A stretch of 64,000 bases of DNA from Auricularia sp. M13 (lineage: Eukaryota > Basidiomycota > Agaricomycetes > Auriculariales > Auriculariaceae). Position numbers and translations under genes: made by a program. Shown piece after piece: positions 294 to 20,374 of the stretch (its first letter is position 1; each line of letters starts with the position of its first letter). The notes under the pieces are model-generated. The model worked only from the letters and a program-made list of their open reading frames with translations. It had not been told where the DNA came from and made no database searches. The stretch covers positions 3,844,001 to 3,908,000 of the forward strand of contig CM073194.1 of the NCBI GenBank assembly GCA_037042915.1, given 5' to 3'.

Positions 294-3225
294 GTCGCCG
301 ACGCAGCGACGAACAGTCACGGGAAATGACCCATCGAACTGCAATACCTATGTCTCATTATGTTCTCTTCCTTAGAGCTTCCCCGTTACGCTGCGAGCCA
401 CAAAATGAATGTTCCTTTGTCCCCATTCCACAGCGTCTTTTACCGCTCTCTTGAGCTCAGCCCGCCAGTTGCGAGGCCGAAATATAGAATTTCGTTCGTC
501 GTGGAGGCTGATGTCAACGGGATGGGTGGCTCGAGTCTGTAGAAGATAACGGATACGTGGTACGATGACAAGCGGAGTTGCGTGCTCTGCTCCTCTTCCT
601 CCTCAATATACAACGATCCGCGTAACATGCCGCTTGCCGAACGGCTGCCTAATCTTACACTCCACGTGCTGCTCGTGCATCCTCAGGCTACAGCGTGACG
701 CTTTCAGCTCCTCCAGCTTGCTACCAGTCGCATCGAAGCTGGCCAAATGAACGGCGCTCTAACTTGTGACACTACCTTTCGACAATCCGTGTGCAACCAT
801 GTTTCGGATGCGATTCAGCGACGTCAGGCTCAGGCAAAGTCGCGCCCTGCCTCGATGTGGTCGTTTTTCTGTGCTCCAAATGTGTCTGAACGCACCTCCA
901 ATTTATGATGCCCAGCATTCGTCTCGACGGGTTATTATCGGCTCGTTCTTTCGGTTTGGATATGGGCGACCTGGTGGACGCGCCTCGATCCAGGCAGCTT
1001 GAACGATACGGAAGAGGCTGCCCACGTCATTGTCCAAGAGCGCGAGTGGTAAAACATGCCGGCCTGCAGCACGCACATTGTCCCGAGAGCAAATAGTGCA
1101 CTCCAGAGGCCATCGCGCGATGTAGGACAGGCGCTGCGGGTGTTATTGAGCGCGAACGGATCGGTCAAGAGAAGCTCTGTTGACCCCCGGGTCGGCGACA
1201 GCGGCTGAACCCCATTTCGGAGGACTTCACAGACGGCGGTATACGAGAGCATACCAGCTGACCGTCCAGTGTCACTGTGAGTCCTCACCGTGCATGCATA
1301 TATTCGAACAGCATCCAGGTCAGCGCTCTATGCTTAGTCCGGTTCAATCCGCGCCGGTCCCATAGGCCTTCGCGGTTCGGGGGCAAACCTTAAGAACGCG
1401 ACGCGACGCGGCGAGCAGAGGCATCGAATAAAAGTCGCATTGTCAGCCTATGGCGTACATGGCGGACCCTGATGTCAACTGGACCCTCGAGAGACATTAG
1501 ACTGTGAACAGATGCGAAAACCGGTGTCTGTTTCAAGTGGCCATGGGCCTGCCACCAGCGGGCTTTTGGCCCTACTGTGGTCTGCGCAACAACTCAGAAA
1601 ATGGCCAAAAGATCTCATAGATAGTATTGGCACGATTAAGACCTCCAGCATATCTACTGGTGTCGTGCCAGAGCCTGGATGGTCGACGACCTTGGGCTTT
1701 CTATACGCGCAGCTTCTAACGCATGAACATATACGAGGGCTTTGAAATTTCCTCCTCCTGGCTAGTGAAAGGACCTTCACCGAGTAATAGAGGAGTTCTC
1801 GCGGACGTAGAGTAAGACTGTGCAGACGGGCAGGTGTTGGGGACATTTTCGGCAATGATGACGCTCTTCCAGCGGGAAAAAGCAGCATGCAATTTTTGCT
1901 TGAATTATCATGATTTAATGTCTATCTCCCAGGTTGCTCCTTGTAGTTGAAATTGAGATATTGACGTTCATGGCCGGCCCAGCGCGCCCGCGTTCGAATA
2001 AGGTTTGTCGGATCTGGCCGAACCGCGAACGCCTGTGGGCGGGGCGCGACATCAGGGAAATCCCCGGAAGTTGGTAACGGGTGGCAATGCCAGTGCAAGG
2101 GAAACAATGATCCGAAGGTGATGCGAGTATGGTCAAGCGATACCAGATGATACAATGCTCGGAACAAGGCCAGCATGTCGATTTACCATGCCATTGCAAT
2201 GCGACTCAATCCTGGTTCACAATTGCAATAGCCTGGTCGCGTCTCATGATGTGCACAGCAGATACCTCCGTCTGCCAGCTTCTGCTCCCATTTGCTTGCT
2301 CCTCATTGTTCGCAACGGCGACGAAACAGTTCGAAAAATGCAAATAAAAATAATAAAATTGATGCACAACACTATATACAAGCGGCTACTACTCAAATCG
2401 GTTGCGCGATACTTACCAACGACACAATGGCTAAATGAAACCAGATCCTCCGGCCGGTTGGACGGCCAGATGTAGCACAGTTGGGACCGAAACTGAAAAC
2501 ATTTGTTAGCGATAACGTCTAAAAGACAGACATCGGACTGACATACCCAAAGACCAGGTGGAGGTAAGTGTGCTACGCATGGGGGGTAACTGCAGACACG
2601 GTGCACGATACTAAAAAAACGACAAGTCAGCCTCGGCCGCAACTGTCAAGTAAATAACACCTACCGCGCTCGCGTCCTAGCGCATATGCAGCTTTGGCGC
2701 CCGGGCTGCTGGAGAGACGTGAGCACGAGTAGCGGGCGGTGAAGTAAAGCTCTCACCTTTAATGCGTAATGAGAGGAGCCTTCTCGGGCTGCGCAGCCTA
2801 GCTATGCCGGTGGATGAGCTACAAATCATCGCCACAGAGCGACGAACTCACTACCGTATTCGCGAAAGTGGGATATAGTACCTAAAGCGTGAAGTTAGTG
2901 GACTGTCAGCGGGGGGACACATACATACAGTCTACGGCCGAGCGGGTCTGCCGCGTTGCAAGGTCTGGGGCGTTGCCCAACACCAGGCAGCAGCGAGTGC
3001 GGTCGCGGTGGGAGCGAAGGAATGTGCAAACACGGACAAACCAACCGCTGCGGTTGTCACCTACGGCCCGTGATGCTGATCCTGTGCTGATCCCATCACT
3101 GCCCAGTGCCATGCCCTCCTCCTCCTCCGTCCGAACAAACCTCTGAACTGTGCTTATGTATATCTCCTACCTGTTGGCAGTCAAAGTCTGCATTACAACA
3201 ATTTTTTGCGTAGGCAGAGCACATA

Positions 3226-4049: not shown

Positions 4050-4829
4050 ATGACACGCACGGGTGTCTTCGGGGCAAGTGAATTCTCGAAAGCCTGGAAT
4101 ACAGCCGTGTCAAGTATTGGCATCCGCGAGCGGCTCGGCATGCTTACCACCGTGGTTGCGTTACTTGGCGGAGCGGCAGTCAGGACGCGTCTCGAAGACG
4201 AAAAAAGATCGACTCACAGCTGCTTGAGGTCAGCCCGGCTGCACAGCGCAGATCGAGGTGAGCACTCGGGGTCAGGACTGGTGGAGAATGGACTGACACT
4301 GCCTGAGTCCCCAGGGGCACGCTGGCGATCACGGGCTTCTTTTGGATGAGATTGTTGACCAGGCTGACGCTGCGCTCACACTCAGTCTTCGCCTCTCAAG
4401 AACGAAACACCGTACATATCATCGCGGAGTACCTCCGCGAGCGCGAGAACCTCGGTACCGTCCGGAACGGAGATGGGTCCCGGCGTCGCCTGCCAACATC
4501 GATGTCAGCAACTTCGCAATATTCGCACCACCATCAGATGGACGCGCATTGGTGTCTGCCGTGGCCTTCTGAACGGACGTGTTGATTCCTTGCGCGCGAT
4601 TATTGATGTCCTGCGCGTTATTGTGGCATGAAGCACCCGCGCGGCGACTCAGTGGGATACTACGCACAATCGCACCAGGGATATCGCCGTTGTAGTTCTT
4701 AACTGCGGTACCGAGCGCGACCACCTGAGTGTTGAGGCTCTGGATGTCTGCCTTGATCGCGGCAACGGTGGCCAAGACCCCGAGCGGGGCGAGTGCGAGG
4801 CAGAGGAAGTTGCGCAACATGAACTTCAT
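4050..4829 (-). pseudogene. Decayed hydrophobic surface-binding protein (HsbA-like), copy 1
   Basis: The reading starts at 4829 with a signal-peptide-like stretch (MKFMLRNFLCLALAPLGVLA). It continues as an HsbA-type helical protein, including ADIQSLNTQVVALGTAVKNY and an AQDINNRAQGINTSVQKATA segment. After about residue 110 this frame runs out, and the HsbA continuation appears in other frames: VNNLIQKKPVIASVPLG near 4310-4365 and DTAVFQAFENSL near 4080-4125. HsbA proteins are small secreted fungal proteins of about 170-190 residues that bind hydrophobic surfaces and recruit enzymes. The frame changes suggest a broken gene, although unrecognised introns could explain some of them. A TATA-like box lies at 4901-4910. 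A second decayed copy lies at 7688-8608. Confidence 0.55.
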
Positions 4830-4900
4830 CGTGGGAGTGGCTATTGGTGGGCGTTCAAGTTGGGAGTGCTGGGATCCTGAGGTACGCACCGCTCCAAGGG

Positions 4901-4910
4901 ATTTTATACC
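4901..4910 (-). promoter_or_regulatory. TATA-like box upstream of HsbA-like copy 1
   Basis: On the minus strand this reads GGTATAAAAT, about 75 bases upstream of the ATG at 4829. The spacing suits a core promoter. The call rests on sequence and position only. Confidence 0.5.
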
Positions 4911-6006
4911 CTCCAGCTGTCGGATCTTGCATGTGCAGCGTTGGGGATGCCTTCTGCACAGTGGCATCCGGCGACGGCGGGGGATCGACTCCACCGGACC
5001 GCGACATTCGACGGACAGACCTCGATATTCTACTTCATCAGGGCACGAGATGCAGGAGCTGTCTTCCAGCGTGTGGTGGCTCCACTATTCAGCCGGTGAT
5101 CTACTCCCAATGCCATTGGAAACCGGGTATGCCACCTCCAAAAAACCTGCATTTGGCATGATTGCTCAACGCGACACCACCTGGATGCGCCTGGTGGCAT
5201 GCTCATGGCGCCACAATCCAGACGAATCATCCGCCACGAGCTGAACGGTCAGATCGTCGCCGACCACCCGACCAGCATCGAATGCATTAGCTTGGGATCA
5301 CCATACACGTGCGAGATGGCGCGAAAGGCGGGAGATATGGCATTTCACAGTCTGGAGACGACCCTCGCGGCATGGAAGAGATCGTCGCTGGTCATCGGTG
5401 GGATTCCCGACCTCCGTCAAAACTCCTGGTCGCGACGCCACAGTAGGTCCCACCGTGACACATGTACTAGGCATATGTACGCCCTTCCTCTTGACCACTG
5501 ACGCACTCATGAGAGGTGCGGGAAGGATTGTGATAGGAAGGCGACCAGCTATAGACCCTAGCTAAAGGTACTGACATCTTGGAGGCGCGGCGACGCAAAT
5601 CGAATGAGGGAAGAAAGATCGAAAGACGCCCCCCGGAAACACCAGCATCTCCCAGTCTCCGAGCGACTGTTCGATCGCGCATTACTGGATACCTGCCTGT
5701 TAATTCTCTACAAATATTGTACAATACTTGGCCTTCCTTCCACTTCGGGGGAAGGAAGGCCGAGACAGCAGCGCTGGCTCCTGCCTTTTCAGAGTGTCAC
5801 TAATGAAGCGGCCTTTCACAGCAGAGAAAGGCTGGGTAAGTAAGTGGACCTGCAGAATAAGCCAAAAGAATTTTCAACTTGCGCTGTGTGATGAACTGCG
5901 GAGATATCGGCCCGACATTGCCACGTGTGCCACGTGGACTTGATGTGATTTTGCTTATAATATCCTGCGGCGCCTCGGATTGGGATTTTCAGCTCCCTCC
6001 CCTGAA
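4911..6006. other. Intergenic, one strong hairpin
   Basis: No gene recognised. A perfect 12-bp inverted repeat lies at 5730-5761 (listed separately). The open frames here are short, overlap one another and carry no known motif. Confidence 0.5.
5730..5761. repeat. Perfect 12-bp stem, 8-base loop
   Basis: GGCCTTCCTTCC at 5730-5741 is mirrored exactly by GGAAGGAAGGCC at 5750-5761, with loop ACTTCGGG. It lies about 245 bases upstream of the NAD-binding gene. No target duplication is visible, so it is described only as a hairpin. Confidence 0.8.
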
Positions 6007-7687: not shown

Positions 7688-8608
7688 TCAGGAGTACGCC
7701 CCGAGGGCCTTTGCGAGCGCCGCACTGACCACCGCGGCGACGTCGCTGCCGTATACGCGCAGGTCGCCCTTGATCGCGAGCTCCGCGTCAGCTCCAGGCG
7801 GTCAAATCAAAATCAAAGTGCGGCGTACGGGCAGGATCTCGAAGAGCGCGTCCGAGAACGACTGCATTCAATATTCAATGCGCAGGCCTCGGTCACCTGC
7901 CAGTGTGTCTGCTCGACTTTTGCAGACGCACCTGGGTGCTGTTGTCCCTGTCGATGCGGCGTCGGCCCTGAGGACTCTACGGGGAGGAGGAACGCACTGC
8001 TGTACGATGTCGGCCTTGCTGCGACGCGACGCGCTCTGTCAGCCGGGGACACACGGCACCGCGACGTGGACTGACACGATCGGGGTCGCGTCGACGCCGG
8101 ACGCATTCCTGAACAGCGGCTTCTTCGCGACGAGCGCCTCGCCCAGATTCTCGCTGGCCAGCCCAAGATTCAAGATTCAAGAGTCAACACACGCGCGAGG
8201 AAGGAAAGGATACGTATACGCACATGCCGGGCGCGAACGCCAGCAGGAGGTCCCGGCCCTCGTCCTCGGTCACCGGGCCCGCGACCCACTACTCGCTCAA
8301 CGACTGCCAGTGCCACCATCCAGAGCCGCAGCGCACCAGGGTGTCTGCCGTGGCCTGCGCGATGACCGCGTTGAGCGCCTGTGCGTCGGTGTGGATGGCC
8401 TGCAATTTCGCCAACCTCAGCTCGGCGCCGCGGACTGTACTGTACAGTACTTACCAACGCCCCGCTCAAACTGCCGTCGAACGCGTCCACGCGACTGCCG
8501 AGCGTCTGCACGTCGCCCGCAATGGGCCGCGATGCCGCGCTGGATGTCCGCGACGCTCCGAGCCGTTCCGCCGGCGAGGAGCGCAAGGCAGAGGATCCGG
8601 GTGAACAT
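7688..8608 (-). pseudogene. Decayed hydrophobic surface-binding protein (HsbA-like), copy 2
   Basis: The start at 8608 gives a signal peptide (MFTRILCLALLAGGTARS) and then ADIQRGIAA. A one-base change in the GGG/CCC run near 8524 shifts the frame, and the HsbA-like text resumes as IAGDVQTLGSRVDAFDGSL. Later pieces lie in order but in different frames: AIHTDAQALNAVIAQATADT near 8340-8400, TEDEGRDLLLAF near 8235-8270, ENLGEALVAKKPLF near 8110-8150, FSDALFEILP near 7830-7860, and a C-terminus ending LAKALGAYS before the TGA at 7688-7690. Some gaps have good splice sites, but the change near 8524 and a stop near 8290 cannot be spliced out. Order and content support HsbA; the breaks support pseudogene status. 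It is divergent from copy 1. Confidence 0.6.
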
Positions 8609-9345
8609 GGTACTCCGAGTCGCGGGGCGTGCACCGGTACCCTCCCAGCCTTTAAACCGCCCGATTCTGTAGCCCGACCTCACACCTTCACATTCCTTCT
8701 TAGCAGTTTTCAGCCTGAGAGACGGACTCCAGCCGATCGAGCCCGCTGAACTGGATTCAGACGCCACCCAGACTGCAGGACACCCGACGGATTTCTTCAA
8801 CACTCAGTGCACGGGGTGCGTTTTGCGCCCAATCACGCAGCGAGGCGCACTCGGACAGCGCCCCCGACTGTCAAAGGAATCCTCGGCGGCAATGTACCAG
8901 TGCTCGCCATCCCGATCGGCGCCATCCCATGCGTTCTTCAACGCCATTTCGAACGTCCCGAACACCAGAAAGCCAATCAAGGTGTACATCTGCAGAGTAG
9001 GCCCCAACGAAACCAACGTCTGTCACCCGGAGGCGAGGAAGCATGCCCCCACACTGTAAACGGCAGGATTGGCGACCAGACGATGAGCGCCGGTCTCGCA
9101 CCACATCGAGCCTGTTCCCCTGTTCTGGGTGCGTCATTTTTTGCCCTGGCGCCCTTTGGCTCATGCGATGATCTCAAGAGATATACAGATTACTTGCCAG
9201 CGGGCGTCGTCGTTGATTCAAGCCCGCGCATTTCGCACGACAGCGTCGTCCCAAACCATGAGCAGGGACGCCAACGTCGCCGGCACCGAGGTCCTCAGGC
9301 TCCAAATCTCAGCTCGCAACCTCCCAACACATGGCATTTCAAGTT
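8609..9345. other. Intergenic with an unexplained minus-strand short ORF
   Basis: An open frame at 8804-9016 (minus) encodes about 70 residues with one possible membrane segment (TLIGFLVFGTFEMAL). No splice partner or family was recognised, so it is not called a gene. Nothing else supportable is seen. Confidence 0.4.
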
Positions 9346-10377
9346 CTATCCATGCACAGCACGGACAGCACGCGCAACAACGACAGCGAGTAGACCTCCA
9401 GCGACCACGGGCATGCCCCACTTGCGAGTCTCTGCGGCATTAGACACACCCGCCGTCACCGGCGCATTTGCCGGCGCCGCTGTCGCGTCTAGTCGTAGGC
9501 GTGAGTCAGTCGTGCTCGAGGAGCGCTAAGTTGGCCTGAAGACTCACTTTTGCCGCTCACGAGCGCGTCTGGCACAGTCTCATTACCGCTGAGCAGCGCG
9601 CCGGCCGTCGTCGCATCTACAACCAAGCCATGTCAACCGCCAGGCAGGACGCTACCCACACAAACGCCACGCACTCTTCCCAACCGCCGGCGCAGGCGGC
9701 CGCCCGTCCGGCGCGACGCACATGCCCGTCTGCGTGTCGCACGCCTCCGCCTCGGTGCAGCACGACGTCGCTGCAGCGCAAGTCAGCACGGCCGAATCTC
9801 AATTGCGGGCTCCAGAAAGAGGAGGCTATGTGCCTCTTCCTGCCGGAGGAGACGTACCGCAGAGCGTCTCGCCGTCCTCGCACTGCTCGAGGCCGGCGTC
9901 CGGGTCCTCGTCGCCCGCGTCGTCCGAGCCGAGGTCGAGGTCGGTGCTGACGCAGCCGCCGCCGGGCGCGCACGCCATGTCCTCCGGGCAGCACGTCACG
10001 CCGTCCGTGCACGCCGTGTCCGACCTAAAGGGGCGGTGGAAAGGGGACGGTCAGCCCCTGGGGGGAGGACGGAGGACGGAAGACGGAGAATTGGGAACGG
10101 AAAGGGGAATGGATGGGACGCACGCGCCGCACGCCAACGCATTCGCAAGCCGGTCCGTGACGCGGCACGCCCACGCGCCGCGCGCCTCGGCGACGCACTG
10201 CGTGCTCTCGGCGCAGCAGAACGCGTCGCCCGGCTCGCACGCGAACGGCGCCGCGCTCGAGCACGCCGCCGCCGGCGTCGTCGTCGTCACCAGCGTCTTC
10301 AAGTTGTACCGCGACGTCGTCGGCGTCGCAAACGCTGTGGCCGAGAGTGCGAGGAGCGCCAGGGGCAGGGTGAGCAT
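9346..10377 (-). CDS. Secreted cysteine-rich protein A (three CC-x5-C modules, GPI-type tail)
   Basis: Five exons (minus): 10124-10377, 9858-10024, 9675-9770, 9548-9616 and 9346-9488; 729 bases, 242 residues. A signal peptide (MLTLPLALLALSATAFA) is followed by three cysteine modules of the form C-x(3-6)-CC-x5-C-x(5-9)-C, in exons 1, 2 and 3: EPGDAFCCAESTQC, GVTCCPEDMACAPGGGC and SCCTEAEACDTQTGMC. The tail is rich in Ala/Thr/Pro and ends in a hydrophobic helix with almost no cytoplasmic residues, as in GPI-anchored proteins. No known domain is recognised. It is not a hydrophobin by cysteine spacing. Genes B and C nearby share the module and intron placement. A weak AT-rich TATA-like site lies near 10503-10514. 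Likely cell surface or secreted; function unknown. Confidence 0.8.
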
Positions 10378-10637
10378 GATCGTGGACGGTGAGTGGTCTG
10401 AGTGGCTGATCGTTGGAGGTGTGCAGGTCGCTACCAGAGCGATACGAGATATGCAATGTAGAGGGAGAGAAGGCGGGCGGGGTATTCACACTCCTCCGCC
10501 TCCCATATATTTACCCCTGATTGTGCATTTAGGAGCGCATTTAACTCCGGATCAGGGGCACTCCGCGGCGAAGCGTCATCATTTTCGCGGCTCCAGAAAG
10601 GAATGTGGCATTTCCTCAACAAAATACATGAAAGCTG

Positions 10638-11630
10638 TCAGCCGCGCACAGCACGGAGGGAGAAATATACAAAAAAGCTCGATACAACAGCAGCACCGAC
10701 GGAAATTAACCCGGAGAGAGCCTGCGGCGCGGCGTTGAGGAGCGAGGACGCGCTCTCGACGCCGGTGTCGTTGCGGTGGTGCGCCGTCACGGCCGTGGCA
10801 TCTGCTCGCGCGCAAGGACGGATGAGCTCATGAGACGTGCTGACAAGGTGAGATGCAAACGTACTCTTGTTAATGCCGCTGGGACGAGCCGGAATCAAAG
10901 TTCCAGTGGCACTGGCACTGGCACTCGAACTCGAACTCGGAGTGGGAGTGGCTCTCGAGCTCGGATGGGGAGTGGGACTCCGAGTCGAGGTGAGATAATT
11001 GCTCATGTCCCCCACGCCGCGACACCCATAGACCGCATCGCAGCGCTCGTTTGCCTCGCAGCACGTATTGTCTGCCAGAGAAACCATCATCAGTCGAACT
11101 TGGACGAAATAGGAGACGCACTGCACAGGGTCTCGGTCTCGTCGCACACGACGGGGTTCTGGTCGGCCGGGTCGGCGTCCTTGGGCACGCACTGGCCGTC
11201 CGCGGAGCACTGCAGGTCCACGGGGCAGCAGCTCGCGCCCTTCGCGCTCACGCAGGGCGTCTCCAATCTAAGCAAAGCGCAACTTGTGAGGGCCATCGCG
11301 CATCGAGCCGCATGAACCGCGGGAAGGCACTCACAAAGCGCACCCGAGCCAGCAGCCCCAGCCGCCCTTCGAGTCGCCCGCATCGTCGAACAGGTCCGTC
11401 GGGTCGACGCACTGCTCGAGGAGCGGGCAGCAGAAGTCGATCTCCCCGCGCAGGCACTCGAACGGCGCCGCCTCGTTGCACTCGAACGCCGGCACCGTCG
11501 TCTCGTGGCGCTGCGCAGCAAGGGTCACGTTCGCATGCTTGGCGGCGGTCGCGACATGGGGCCGAGCGGAGACTGCTGCTGAGCTGGCGAGCAGCAAGAG
11601 CGCGAATTTGAACGAAAGGGGGCTGGGCAT
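10638..11630 (-). CDS. Secreted cysteine-rich protein B (three CC-x5-C modules, GPI-type tail)
   Basis: Four exons (minus): 11335-11630, 11122-11267, 10865-11071 and 10638-10801; 813 bases, 270 residues. It has a signal peptide (FALLLLASSAAVSA) and three modules: RGEIDFCCPLLEQC (exon 1), GASCCPVDLQCSADGQC (exon 2) and NNTCCEANERCDAVYGC (start of exon 3). A Ser/Thr/Pro linker follows, encoded by a short degenerate repeat near 10910-10970. The end is a hydrophobic C-terminal segment typical of GPI anchoring. Intron 1 is phase 2 and intron 2 is phase 1, right after the cysteine of ETLC, as in gene A. The last intron (phase 1) also falls before an Asn-Ala-Thr junction, as in A. A and B are tandem duplicates on the same strand, 260 bases apart. 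Function unknown. Confidence 0.8.
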
Positions 11631-11817
11631 CTCGGGGGTCGGAGGGGCGATGGAGGGCTGAGATCGAGGTCGAGTATACTAGTAGAATAGGAAAGTAGGT
11701 CGGGGAGCTGGGATTACTACGAGATCAACGTGAAAACTTGAAGCTGCGCTACCAGAGCGTGGGCGGGGGGTCAGAACGAGAGGAGCGAGGGCGCGGCGGA
11801 GATTGCAGGGCGTGCAC

Positions 11818-11827
11818 TTTATATACC
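11818..11827 (-). promoter_or_regulatory. TATA-like box upstream of gene B
   Basis: Reads GGTATATAAA on the minus strand, about 190 bases upstream of the gene B start codon. If it is used, the 5' leader is around 150 bases. Confidence 0.5.
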
Positions 11828-13223
11828 CTTTTCGGGGGTATCCAGATGGGCCCCGCCTCCGGATACCTGCTTTTTTTCCGTCTCAGAGGGGCGGCTTCTC
11901 GGCCGTTTAATGCGCGGAAGACGGAGAGGGGCTGAGGATTCGCGTGAGTCCGGATCGGGGGCTAGCTGCTAATTCGTGCAAACACGACGATCATGACGTC
12001 TGGTTTGCGGGGGTGTCATTTTCAAGAGGCTGATTGCTACATAACTATAAATGGTGTTCGAAATGCCTTCGAGTTCAGAGAATACAAGGTAAGCGCTGCT
12101 GAATTGTTCCTTACGCCTGCATGTCTCAATAAAGAGTAGAAGGAGTGCTTTAGGTCGGACAAGGCTTCGGCAACGCAACCGCGACGTTCATTGCGGCTGC
12201 CGACTTTGCATATATGCAGGTCGCTGCTATTCTTAGCAGAGAAGGATCGTCGCAGCAGGGTCTGCGTGAGCCCACGATGTGAGGCCATCATCGCGATCCG
12301 AGGGATCTTGCCAAACGGAGTAATATAACAACGAGGCAAGCCCGACCTTTGCATATTAAAAGGTTAGTAAGCATGCCATGCAAGCACCCTCTCGTAGGAA
12401 GGGACTTCTGAGGCGAACGGATGTGCACACGTCAAGCACTGTCAACTTGAAGCATCATATCGTCTGCTCAGCGACGGGCATTTTGAATCAAATTTCGCGC
12501 CAATCTCGTGCCCATAAACACATGAGTTGATAAAGCCTCACATTGAGCTTCTTTTCCGGATTGTACGCAGCCTTCATGCTCTTCATCCCGGAAGCGGTTC
12601 CGTAACGCGTTTGTTCCGGACGACGCGCTTGGAACTCCGATTCCGTCTGTCAGTCTCCTACTCGCCGCTGCCGCGTCTGGACTCGGCCGCGTCGTTGGCC
12701 GCGATAAAAAGTTCCTCCTGGATGGGCAGCACATGCGCGGTCTCCTAGTCCCGCGCGCGCTCTGCACGTTCCTCAAGACCGTCTGACTCTGCCCTCGACC
12801 TAGGTCCTATCCTGACTCTGCGCCCGACCCAATCCATCATGGCGCTCCAGTATCCCAGCAATACTCCTCGTATCAGGCTATAACGCGACTTCTCCAACTG
12901 TTTCTACCCGCTGCGTTCTCTTGCTTGTGCACAAGATCGACGCCTGACTCTTCGCCCGCATCAGTCGAGTGTCTTGCTCCGTCCGCTCCTCAACTCTCTC
13001 GCGTCACCCTGCTCCATACGTCCCGATTAAGCTCTCCAGCAGCGGGTAACCGATATCCATCCCCGATTCACGCGTTCCCAAGACATGGTGACGTTGCGCG
13101 CGGACCGAGAGGGCTCTCCGCCGCCGCCGCCGGGCTCGATCATCCGCGTCCCAGCATAAGTATCGCACACCACCTTCACCCTCCACACCACACCACGCAA
13201 AACTACTCGCCAGAAAGAGAAAG
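11828..13223. other. Intergenic between genes B and C
   Basis: About 1.4 kb separating the divergent cysteine-rich genes B (minus) and C (plus). No coding chain or repeat was recognised. A weak TATA-like motif (CATAAGTATC) at about 13155-13164 precedes gene C. Confidence 0.5.
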
Positions 13224-13914
13224 ATGTTCACCAGCCAGCTTCTCTCCCTCGCACTCCTCGGCGCCTCGGTCAGCGCGAGCGCCATCCTCGCCGGGCGGCA
13301 GAGCGACACGATCACGAGCAACAGCACCGCGGGCTCCACCGCGTCCGTCTTCATGCCCGCGCTCGGCTGCGGCGGGATCGACAACGCGGACTCGTGCGAC
13401 GGCAACGGCGCGTACTGCTGCGCCGACCCCGCCATGTGCGCCACCTCGCCGGACGACTCGTCCGTCTGGGGATGCATGAACGGCAACACGATGATGTGCG
13501 GCACCGGCACCACCATGTGCAGTAAGTCTTGCCTGCGATTAATCTGCCTCTGAAGTAGGCCGCTGACGCCGTTTGCGGTGAAGGTGGCGCACGCGGCGCG
13601 ACGTGCTGCCAGGACTACGAGAGCTGCGACGTCAACACGGGCGTGTGCAACCCGTCGCGTGCGTTTCCAAACCCACTTTACACTTCATCTTGCATAGCCG
13701 AGTCCTGACGACGCCATGTGCAGCGGACATGATCATCGCGAGCCAGAGCTTCTCATCCTACGTCGCGAGCTCGGCGTCCAGTGCCAGTCTTGCCGCGCAA
13801 ACCGCCGCCCAGTCGGGCACCTCAAGCTCTGGAAACGCAGGGTCAGCGAACAGCAGCCCGGAGATGACGCTTGCGGCCATTGTGGCTACGGCTTTGATGC
13901 GCGTGCTGCTGTAA
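13224..13914 (+). CDS. Secreted cysteine-rich protein C (two CC-x5-C modules, GPI-type tail)
   Basis: Three exons: 13224-13521, 13584-13658 and 13724-13914; 564 bases, 187 residues. It has a signal peptide (MFTSQLLSLALLGASVSA) and two modules: CDGNGAYCCADPAMC in exon 1, and GATCCQDYESCDVNTGVC making up most of the 75-base exon 2. A Ser/Ala-rich stretch and a hydrophobic C-terminus (AAIVATALMRVLL) suggest a GPI anchor. Its first intron is phase 1 just after the cysteine of TTMC, matching intron 2 of genes A and B. It appears to lack one module and one intron relative to them. It is on the opposite strand to A and B. A CAATAAAG-like signal follows the stop at about 13921. Function unknown. Confidence 0.8.
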
Positions 13915-19242: not shown

Positions 19243-19464
19243 GGCTGGCCTCGTCAGAGGCCTCTCTCTTGCTGCGGTGTGCCCACCGTATTCCCACCGA
19301 AATGAGGAGAGCACGAGGTGCCAAGGAGCGCAGCAGTATATTACGAAAACACGAGGGCCCGACTGCAGTCCAGACGTTGTAAGCGAGTGGCGATTCTGCG
19401 GGGATTGCGGGTCTGACCAGGGTTTGGCAGTCCAATGTGCCTAGGCGCAGCATTTCCTGGGCAG

Positions 19465-19475
19465 CTATATAAATA
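19465..19475 (+). promoter_or_regulatory. TATA-like box of the small secreted protein gene
   Basis: CTATATAAATA lies about 50-60 bases upstream of the ATG at 19526, a typical core-promoter distance. Confidence 0.55.
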
Positions 19476-19525
19476 TAACAGCATCTCTCTGTCTCTGTGT
19501 TTCGCCACAAGAACAAACCACGATA

Positions 19526-20374
19526 ATGATGCGCTTCCAGGCCGCTCGCAATCTCCTCGCACTGGCGCTGTTTGCCTTCACAACCAATGCTACGAGGTAT
19601 ATTCTTCTCTCATGGGAGGCTTCAGGGACTGAGCTTATGCATTCAAACAGTACTGTCACAGTGACCAAAACCGTCGTGACAACGTCCACCGTCACGGCCC
19701 CCGGGTCCTGCCCAACCTCATGTCCCGACAGCTCGGGATTTACAGAGACTCTGACGGTGTGTGGATATACATCTTCCTTATTCCACTCACCAATAGTTCC
19801 AAAGTTCGAGCCAGAATTGTCATGTCCGAGCATCTGCCCCTTCCCGTTGAAGTTCCTCGGCTTTGAATTCGACGGCTCCGCCGGCTGGCTCCTCGTCAAC
19901 AAGGCCAATGCGACCGACCCGCGTGCTATCTGGAGTCCACCTCTCGGTCTCATGACGATGTCCTCCGGCTTTGTCGGTTTCGGCAGCCAGCACCAGGGCT
20001 TCGTCTTCGATGTACTCAGCTTCTACTTTGCCGTCTTCTCCAACGACGACAATGACGACGTCGTGTTCTTCATGAACGGCCTCGAGAGCACCGGGCACAC
20101 AAGGAGCTACTCCACGCAGCTCAAGGCAGGAATCCAGGGTGTTGGACCGGTCCGTCCTTGCCACTTCGAGTGTCCATTTAAAGCTGACAAGTGCTCGTAG
20201 TACATGATCGACCTGACCACGCCGCAAGGGCAGGCATTCCAGTTCAACATGCTCACGCATATCGAGTTCGCCGCGTACACGTCGTATGACCCGAAGACGA
20301 AGACAGGGATGCCCGCGACGATTATCTTCGATGACTTCAAGTTCAAGAGATACTACGACCCCTGCAACAATTGA
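19526..20374 (+). CDS. Secreted protein of unknown family
   Basis: Four exons: 19526-19596, 19651-19756, 19805-20149 and 20201-20374; 696 bases, 231 residues, all phases consistent. A signal peptide (RNLLALALFAFTTNA) is followed by a Thr/Val-rich stretch (TVTKTVVTTSTVTA) likely to be O-glycosylated. The remaining ~170 residues look like a beta-rich domain: KFLGFEFDGSAGWLL, QGFVFDVLSFYFAVFSNDD and PATIIFDDFKFKRYYDPC. This resembles a carbohydrate- or lipid-binding jelly-roll in character, but I do not recognise a family. The second of two adjacent Met codons (19529) could also be the start. It converges on lipase 1 with 234 bases between the stops. Likely extracellular. Confidence 0.75.

Follow-up and report, generated by a model that had tools for sequence, protein, structure and literature searches.

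The proteins treated here, encoded by three adjacent genes (A, B and C) of the basidiomycete Auricularia sp. M13, have their closest described counterparts among small disulfide-rich proteins. Hydrophobins and CFEM proteins are likewise small, cysteine-rich and secreted by fungi, and contain eight cysteines in other arrangements. The strict spacing of cystine knots (knottins, or inhibitor cystine knots, ICK) is CX3-7CX3-8CX0-7CX1-4CX4-13C, with a fourth loop of generally six residues or fewer (PMC4942781), and knottin folds are reported in fungal effectors such as MLP124266 and Avr9 (PMC6889267, PMC9632046). Hevein-like peptides pair their cysteines 1-4, 2-5 and 3-6 (PMC5374622), and one plant peptide is listed as CX4CX4CCX5CX6C (PMC7565491). 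The granulin unit starts with CX5-6CX5CC and holds 12 cysteines with four CC pairs (PMC1310530). The three genes lie in a stretch of 64,000 nucleotides (contig C2:3844001-3908000, called the window), and searches of the organism's own genome covered its 52.1-Mb, 14-contig assembly. Individual units are designated A1 to C2 after the genes, whereas assembly contigs (contig C1 to contig C10) are always written with the word contig.

Three adjacent genes and their six-cysteine unit

Genes A and B are arranged in tandem, and B and C are positioned head-to-head (Table 1). All nine introns of the three models are of the GT-AG type with lengths of 50-99 nt, and the reading frame is kept throughout. 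The initial annotation of this DNA had placed three genes within 9346-13914, which the spliced models bear out. Read from the sequence, the genes are open once spliced, are composed of six-cysteine units and are paralogous to each other, and we infer that they are transcribed.

The unit follows the pattern C-x(6-8)-C-x(3-7)-CC-x5-C-x(5-18)-C and uses up every cysteine of the three proteins. A and B each contain 18 cysteines (3x6) and C contains 12 (2x6), and neither the N-terminal segment nor the tail has any; the exact division by six also supports the splice models. Alignment of the eight units gives six invariant columns. The modules first described at this locus, two or three copies of C-x(3-7)-CC-x5-C per protein, are present as eight cores (three in A, three in B and two in C), but their four cysteines are too few to define the unit. 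All five later units (A2, A3, B2, B3 and C2) begin with C-x4-T-x-C, while the first units (A1, B1 and C1) have another start, a longer last loop and a tryptophan two residues before Cys 6.

The occurrence of the unit in the DNA was counted with two patterns, both framed after the modules had been seen and blind to units cut by introns: the core pattern TGCTGC-N15-TGC has 14 matches in the window, eight of which are the unit cores, against 1.58 expected (100 shuffles, largest value 5), and a five-cysteine pattern has six matches in the gene region and one elsewhere in the window (200 Markov sequences modelled on the region give a mean of 0.03 and a maximum of 2). One of the six matches (9781, minus strand) takes its first cysteine from read-through intron sequence. 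The five-cysteine match at 3222 (minus strand) adjoins an AT-rich repeat and is attributed to chance.

Both ends of the proteins are hydrophobic. The 15-residue hydropathy maxima are 1.73-2.01 for the N-terminal segments and 2.07-2.31 for the C-terminal tails, and three, four and two sequons are found in A, B and C, respectively. Proteins anchored by glycosylphosphatidylinositol (GPI) combine a signal peptide with a cleavage site of small residues and a C-terminal tail that stays hydrophobic to its end. The signal peptide and GPI-type tail proposed by the initial annotation agree with the hydrophobic segments at both ends, but the GPI type is ambiguous in A and B, where RAVRAVHG and RAVRG follow the hydrophobic stretch. 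The tails of these two proteins may be transmembrane rather than GPI. C has a single arginine near its C-terminal end.

Our leading reading, which we hold tentatively, is that the three paralogues are secreted, remain bound to the surface of the fungal cell and display stacked disulfide-rich units on a stalk. The signal peptide would route them into the secretory pathway. Their outer part would consist of two or three compact six-cysteine units, each probably with three disulfides and knottin- or hevein-like. A stalk rich in Ser/Thr/Pro or in Ala, probably glycosylated, would hold the units out from the membrane or wall, and the hydrophobic C-terminal anchor (GPI or transmembrane) would retain the proteins. 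Most likely, they would form a stable layer on the hyphal surface that serves binding, adhesion or structure. We infer the disulfide pairing, fold, glycosylation, anchoring, ligand and role alike.

Table 1 Genes, unit cores and stalk exon at the locus (positions within the window; loop lengths refer to the whole six-cysteine unit)
Feature	Position	Strand	Description	Loop lengths	Basis
Gene A	9346..10377	-	242 aa; exons 10377-10124, 10024-9858, 9770-9675, 9616-9548, 9488-9346; three six-Cys units		spliced translation, intron check, Cys positions
Gene B	10638..11630	-	270 aa; exons 11630-11335, 11267-11122, 11071-10865, 10801-10638; three six-Cys units; Ser/Thr/Pro-rich stalk		spliced translation, intron check, Cys positions
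Gene C	13224..13914	+	187 aa; exons 13224-13521, 13584-13658, 13724-13914; two six-Cys units		spliced translation, intron check, Cys positions
CC-x5-C core, A1	10195..10218	-	exon 1	7,6,0,5,9	
CC-x5-C core, A2	9970..9993	-	exon 2; Cys 1 of the unit in exon 1	6,5,0,5,5	
CC-x5-C core, A3	9739..9762	-	exon 3; Cys 1 and 2 of the unit in exon 2	6,3,0,5,6	
CC-x5-C core, B1	11409..11432	-	exon 1	7,7,0,5,18	
CC-x5-C core, B2	11207..11230	-	exon 2; Cys 1 of the unit in exon 1	6,7,0,5,5	
CC-x5-C core, B3	11040..11063	-	exon 3; Cys 1 and 2 of the unit in exon 2	6,3,0,5,5	
CC-x5-C core, C1	13416..13439	+	exon 1	8,6,0,5,11	
CC-x5-C core, C2	13604..13627	+	exon 2; Cys 1 and 2 of the unit in exon 1	6,7,0,5,6	
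Extra stalk exon of A	9548..9616	-	69 nt, phase 1-1; GK|NAT at both borders; B with one NK|NAT border		

Relations among the units and positions of the introns

Protein A shares 39% identity with B and 27% with C. The units were compared in all 28 pairs with the cysteines fixed and the loops shuffled 1000 times per pair, and the counts given are the numbers of shuffles that reach the real score, uncorrected for multiple testing. Pairs at the same position yield 0 (A1-B1), 9 (A1-C1), 0 (A2-B2) and 22 (A3-B3), and C2 yields 0 with A3, 17 with B3, 18 with A2 and 278 with B2, whereas the other 12 cross-gene pairs yield 52 (C1-A2) or more. By these counts, the paralogy of the three genes extends to the individual units, which are closest at matching positions, with C2 nearest to A3. 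Within the genes, the counts are 475 (A1-A2), 630 (A1-A3), 139 (A2-A3), 502 (B1-B2), 65 (B1-B3), 364 (B2-B3) and 38 (C1-C2). Over 5% of the loop shuffles reach the score in six of these seven pairs, and the units of one protein have little in common beyond their cysteine spacing; these comparisons give no demonstration that they are duplicates of each other.

In both A and B, intron 1 (phase 2) separates Cys 1 from Cys 2 of unit 2, and intron 2 (phase 1) comes directly after Cys 2 of unit 3. The first intron of C, also in phase 1, directly follows Cys 2 of C2. The earlier observation that these phase 1 introns split the genes after the cysteine of (E/T)T(L/M)C is confirmed. C lacks one unit and one intron of A and B, in line with its original description as a version with one module and intron missing, and the proposal that these secreted cysteine-rich proteins are one family sharing intron positions is supported as well, the members being paralogues.

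A and B had been taken to carry one module per exon, and shuffling or duplication of such a one-exon module had been called an attractive reading of the family. Each of exons 1 to 3 of A and B does contain a single CC core. Moreover, several exons have symmetric phases (1-1), namely exon 2 of C, the third exon of both A and B, and exon 4 of A, and a partial copy of B on contig C3, described below, is without the exon 3 region, which would suit such an origin. However, all five introns of the cysteine-rich parts cut into a six-cysteine unit, in two phases, and none falls between units. Uniform placement puts all five inside units with a probability of 0.30, so the intron positions represent a mismatch with a one-unit-per-exon order and not a strong signal. 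In addition, A and B have an asymmetric exon 2 (phase 2-1), and the within-gene pairs, six of the seven, do not stand out from their shuffles. The one-exon-one-unit form is already contradicted, and an origin of the family by shuffling or duplicating a one-exon module appears very improbable.

Two further features of A and B were observed. The presence of GK|NAT at both borders of the 69-nt stalk exon of A suggests a small exon duplication in the stalk. Upstream of A and B, 13 common bases, CGCTCTGGTAGCG, are located at -64 and -129 from the ATG (10377 and 11630, minus strand), and possibly form a shared promoter or 5' untranslated region element.

Comparison with hevein, knottins and other cysteine-rich proteins

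One alternative, which we rate as unlikely, is that the units are hevein-type (CBM18) domains that have diverged and yet continue to bind or shield the chitin or chitosan of the fungus's own wall. The order of the cysteines is equal, CC-x5-C is invariant in all eight units, and the later units end with C-x(5,6)-C. Particularly, the C-x6-C ending of A3 and C2 is shared with the plant peptide CX4CX4CCX5CX6C (PMC7565491) and with the genome's own CBM18 domains, which read C-x9-C-x4-CC-x5-C-x6-C at two of the four loci above the cut-off (the other two, broken by apparent introns, were left out). The first loop differs, with 6-8 residues in the units, nine in the genome's CBM18 domains and four in the plant peptide. 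Chitin_bind_1 (PF00187) did not match any of the three spliced proteins up to E 10, and the genome-wide search returned other loci only. The chitin-binding signature, CCS-x2-G-x-CG-x4-[FYW]-C, is present in the genome's CBM18 domain at L035 and in none of the eight units. Neither CCS nor a glycine after Cys 5 occurs in any unit, and aromatics are found in the post-CC loop of one of the eight. In the profile comparison, a weak test whose template comprised two near-identical sequences, 94 of 200 cysteine-fixed controls reach the real score. Membership of the units in CBM18 was rejected on Pfam, signature and profile. As a separate observation, the CBM18 domains of L034 and L035, about 4 Mb apart on contig C1, differ at one of 30 residues, a recent-looking duplication.

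The unit spacing does not appear to be that of hydrophobins, in agreement with the initial annotation. The number and arrangement of cysteines differ from both hydrophobins and CFEM proteins, and neither family gave a Pfam match. Granulins are also composed of tandem cysteine-rich units with a similar CX5-6CX5CC start, but they have 12 cysteines and four CC pairs (PMC1310530), compared with six cysteines and one CC pair in the units of A, B and C, and no Pfam match was found here either.

With knottins, the units share six cysteines in the order C-C-CC-C-C and short loops. Seven of the eight fit the broad knottin spacing C-X2-7-C-X3-10-C-X0-7-C-X1-17-C-X4-19-C, and C1, with its first loop of eight residues, fails. 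The units differ from knottins in their departure from the strict spacing, mainly in the fourth loop, in their tandem arrangement on a stalk with a hydrophobic tail, and in giving no sequence or fold match. Since hevein-like peptides pair their cysteines 1-4, 2-5 and 3-6, the knottin and hevein comparisons predict the same pairing. The knottin folds of fungal effectors (PMC6889267, PMC9632046), together with the broad spacing, would agree with A, B and C being released knottin-type effectors or antimicrobial peptides from which the tail is removed after secretion. Yet the hydrophobic C-terminal tail is kept in all three proteins, and two or three units plus a stalk exceed the rust proteins of 50 to 69 residues (PMC6889267). 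The initial annotation had mentioned an effector-like set, for which no evidence was found; the anchored-looking tails argue against a released effector, and we judge this alternative improbable.

The structure prediction of one module that had been suggested gave two AlphaFold models of middling confidence, both of first units, with no credible match to a solved structure. The input was a window alignment of three rows in each case, with Cys 2 of the C row displaced by one column. Both contain a short turn after the CC pair and strands at Cys 5 and Cys 6.

Several points weigh against the reading of A, B and C as surface-attached proteins displaying such units. The confidence of the AlphaFold models is middling (mean pLDDT 65.6 and 74.4, pTM 0.47 and 0.45). 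Foldseek returned three non-credible matches among solved structures for the first model (best E 2.9, TM-scores of 0.29 or lower) and none for the second, and VIA-align gave no match for either first-unit model. Small disulfide-rich models are hard for structure searches, hence the lack of a match does not show a new fold. Pfam searches of the spliced proteins up to E 10 found nothing for B and C and only Hormone_5 at E 7.6 for A, which leaves the three proteins without a credible match, as expected from the earlier statement that no named domain is recognised. A sequence search of the Protein Data Bank (PDB) with B and with the 8-unit profile found nothing up to E 10. None of the eight units fits the strict knot spacing, as the fourth loop has five residues in all of them, the first loop eight in C1 and the last loop 18 in B1. 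B1 and C1 do not beat their loop shuffles (144 of 1000). In A and B, moreover, the tail ends with basic residues, which is unusual for a GPI signal.

A broader view is that the unit represents an unnamed six-cysteine extracellular repeat of a fungal lineage, built on a scaffold like that of hevein or knottins but without the residues for chitin binding, and employed in tandem to make up the outer part of anchored surface proteins. The type with the long last loop and the tryptophan would always come first, and the C-x4-T-x-C type would follow once or twice. We regard this view as possible, though doubtful.

Relatives, neighbouring genes and significance

A partial copy of B is located on contig C3 near 612,270-612,790 (L021 4270-4786), with two matching blocks, one of 405 columns (90% identity) and one of 120 columns (87.5% identity). 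Intron 1 is kept, which identifies a copy made at the DNA level. The match covers neither the signal-peptide part nor the last portion of exon 4. The copy has no exon 3 region, and its exon 4 part has a length change. In addition, one cysteine of the first CC pair is changed to tyrosine and a nearby glycine to cysteine. Compared with B, exon 2 has four silent and no replacement differences, as expected of coding sequence, and the exon 1 part has four silent and six replacement differences. We read it as a broken copy.

Seven protein queries against the own genome found only A, B, C, this copy and two weak matches to gene C. The weak matches, on contig C4 (E 0.08) and contig C10 (E 0.65), lack CC-x5-C in all frames and are attributed to chance. 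These queries have low sensitivity: a search with B does not list A up to E 10, and one with A lists B only at E 0.01, so that diverged paralogues may be missed. A 27-base pattern for AAPFxC is found at four places, namely A, B, the B copy and a site on contig C6 (L033); the last has no CC-x5-C in any frame and is likewise ascribed to chance. No relative was confirmed in viral contigs searched with exon 2 of B or in prokaryote genome contigs searched with the first-unit alignment, and no description of this family was recognised among the literature matches listed.

In the neighbourhood, the open reading frame (ORF) at 4419-5081 (minus strand) matches hydrophobic surface binding protein A (HsbA, PF12296) with E 3.1e-5 and 24.9 bits, below the cut-off of 33.5. 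An HsbA-like ORF fits a surface-protein neighbourhood and proves nothing. The region 8170-8610 (minus strand), with an ATG at 8608 and a signal-peptide-like start, is by eye a possible second HsbA-like gene, and the two ORFs scanned there gave no Pfam match. An ORF at 19445-20200 (plus strand) has a signal-peptide-like start and a Thr/Val-rich, cysteine-containing stretch, with no Pfam match up to E 0.001. Other neighbouring genes match GH92 and HECT_2, which, like the intron lengths of 50-99 nt, is in keeping with a fungal genome.

A, B and C form a real and tidy paralogous family with a clear six-cysteine unit, unnamed in the libraries searched and ordinary in kind. Annotation is difficult for fungal surface proteins composed of short disulfide-rich units, since little except the cysteines is conserved in them. 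The six-cysteine definition corrects the tempting exon-shuffling reading and, together with the loop lengths and intron positions, provides a usable search profile for fungal proteomes, while the three adjacent paralogues suit deletion tests.

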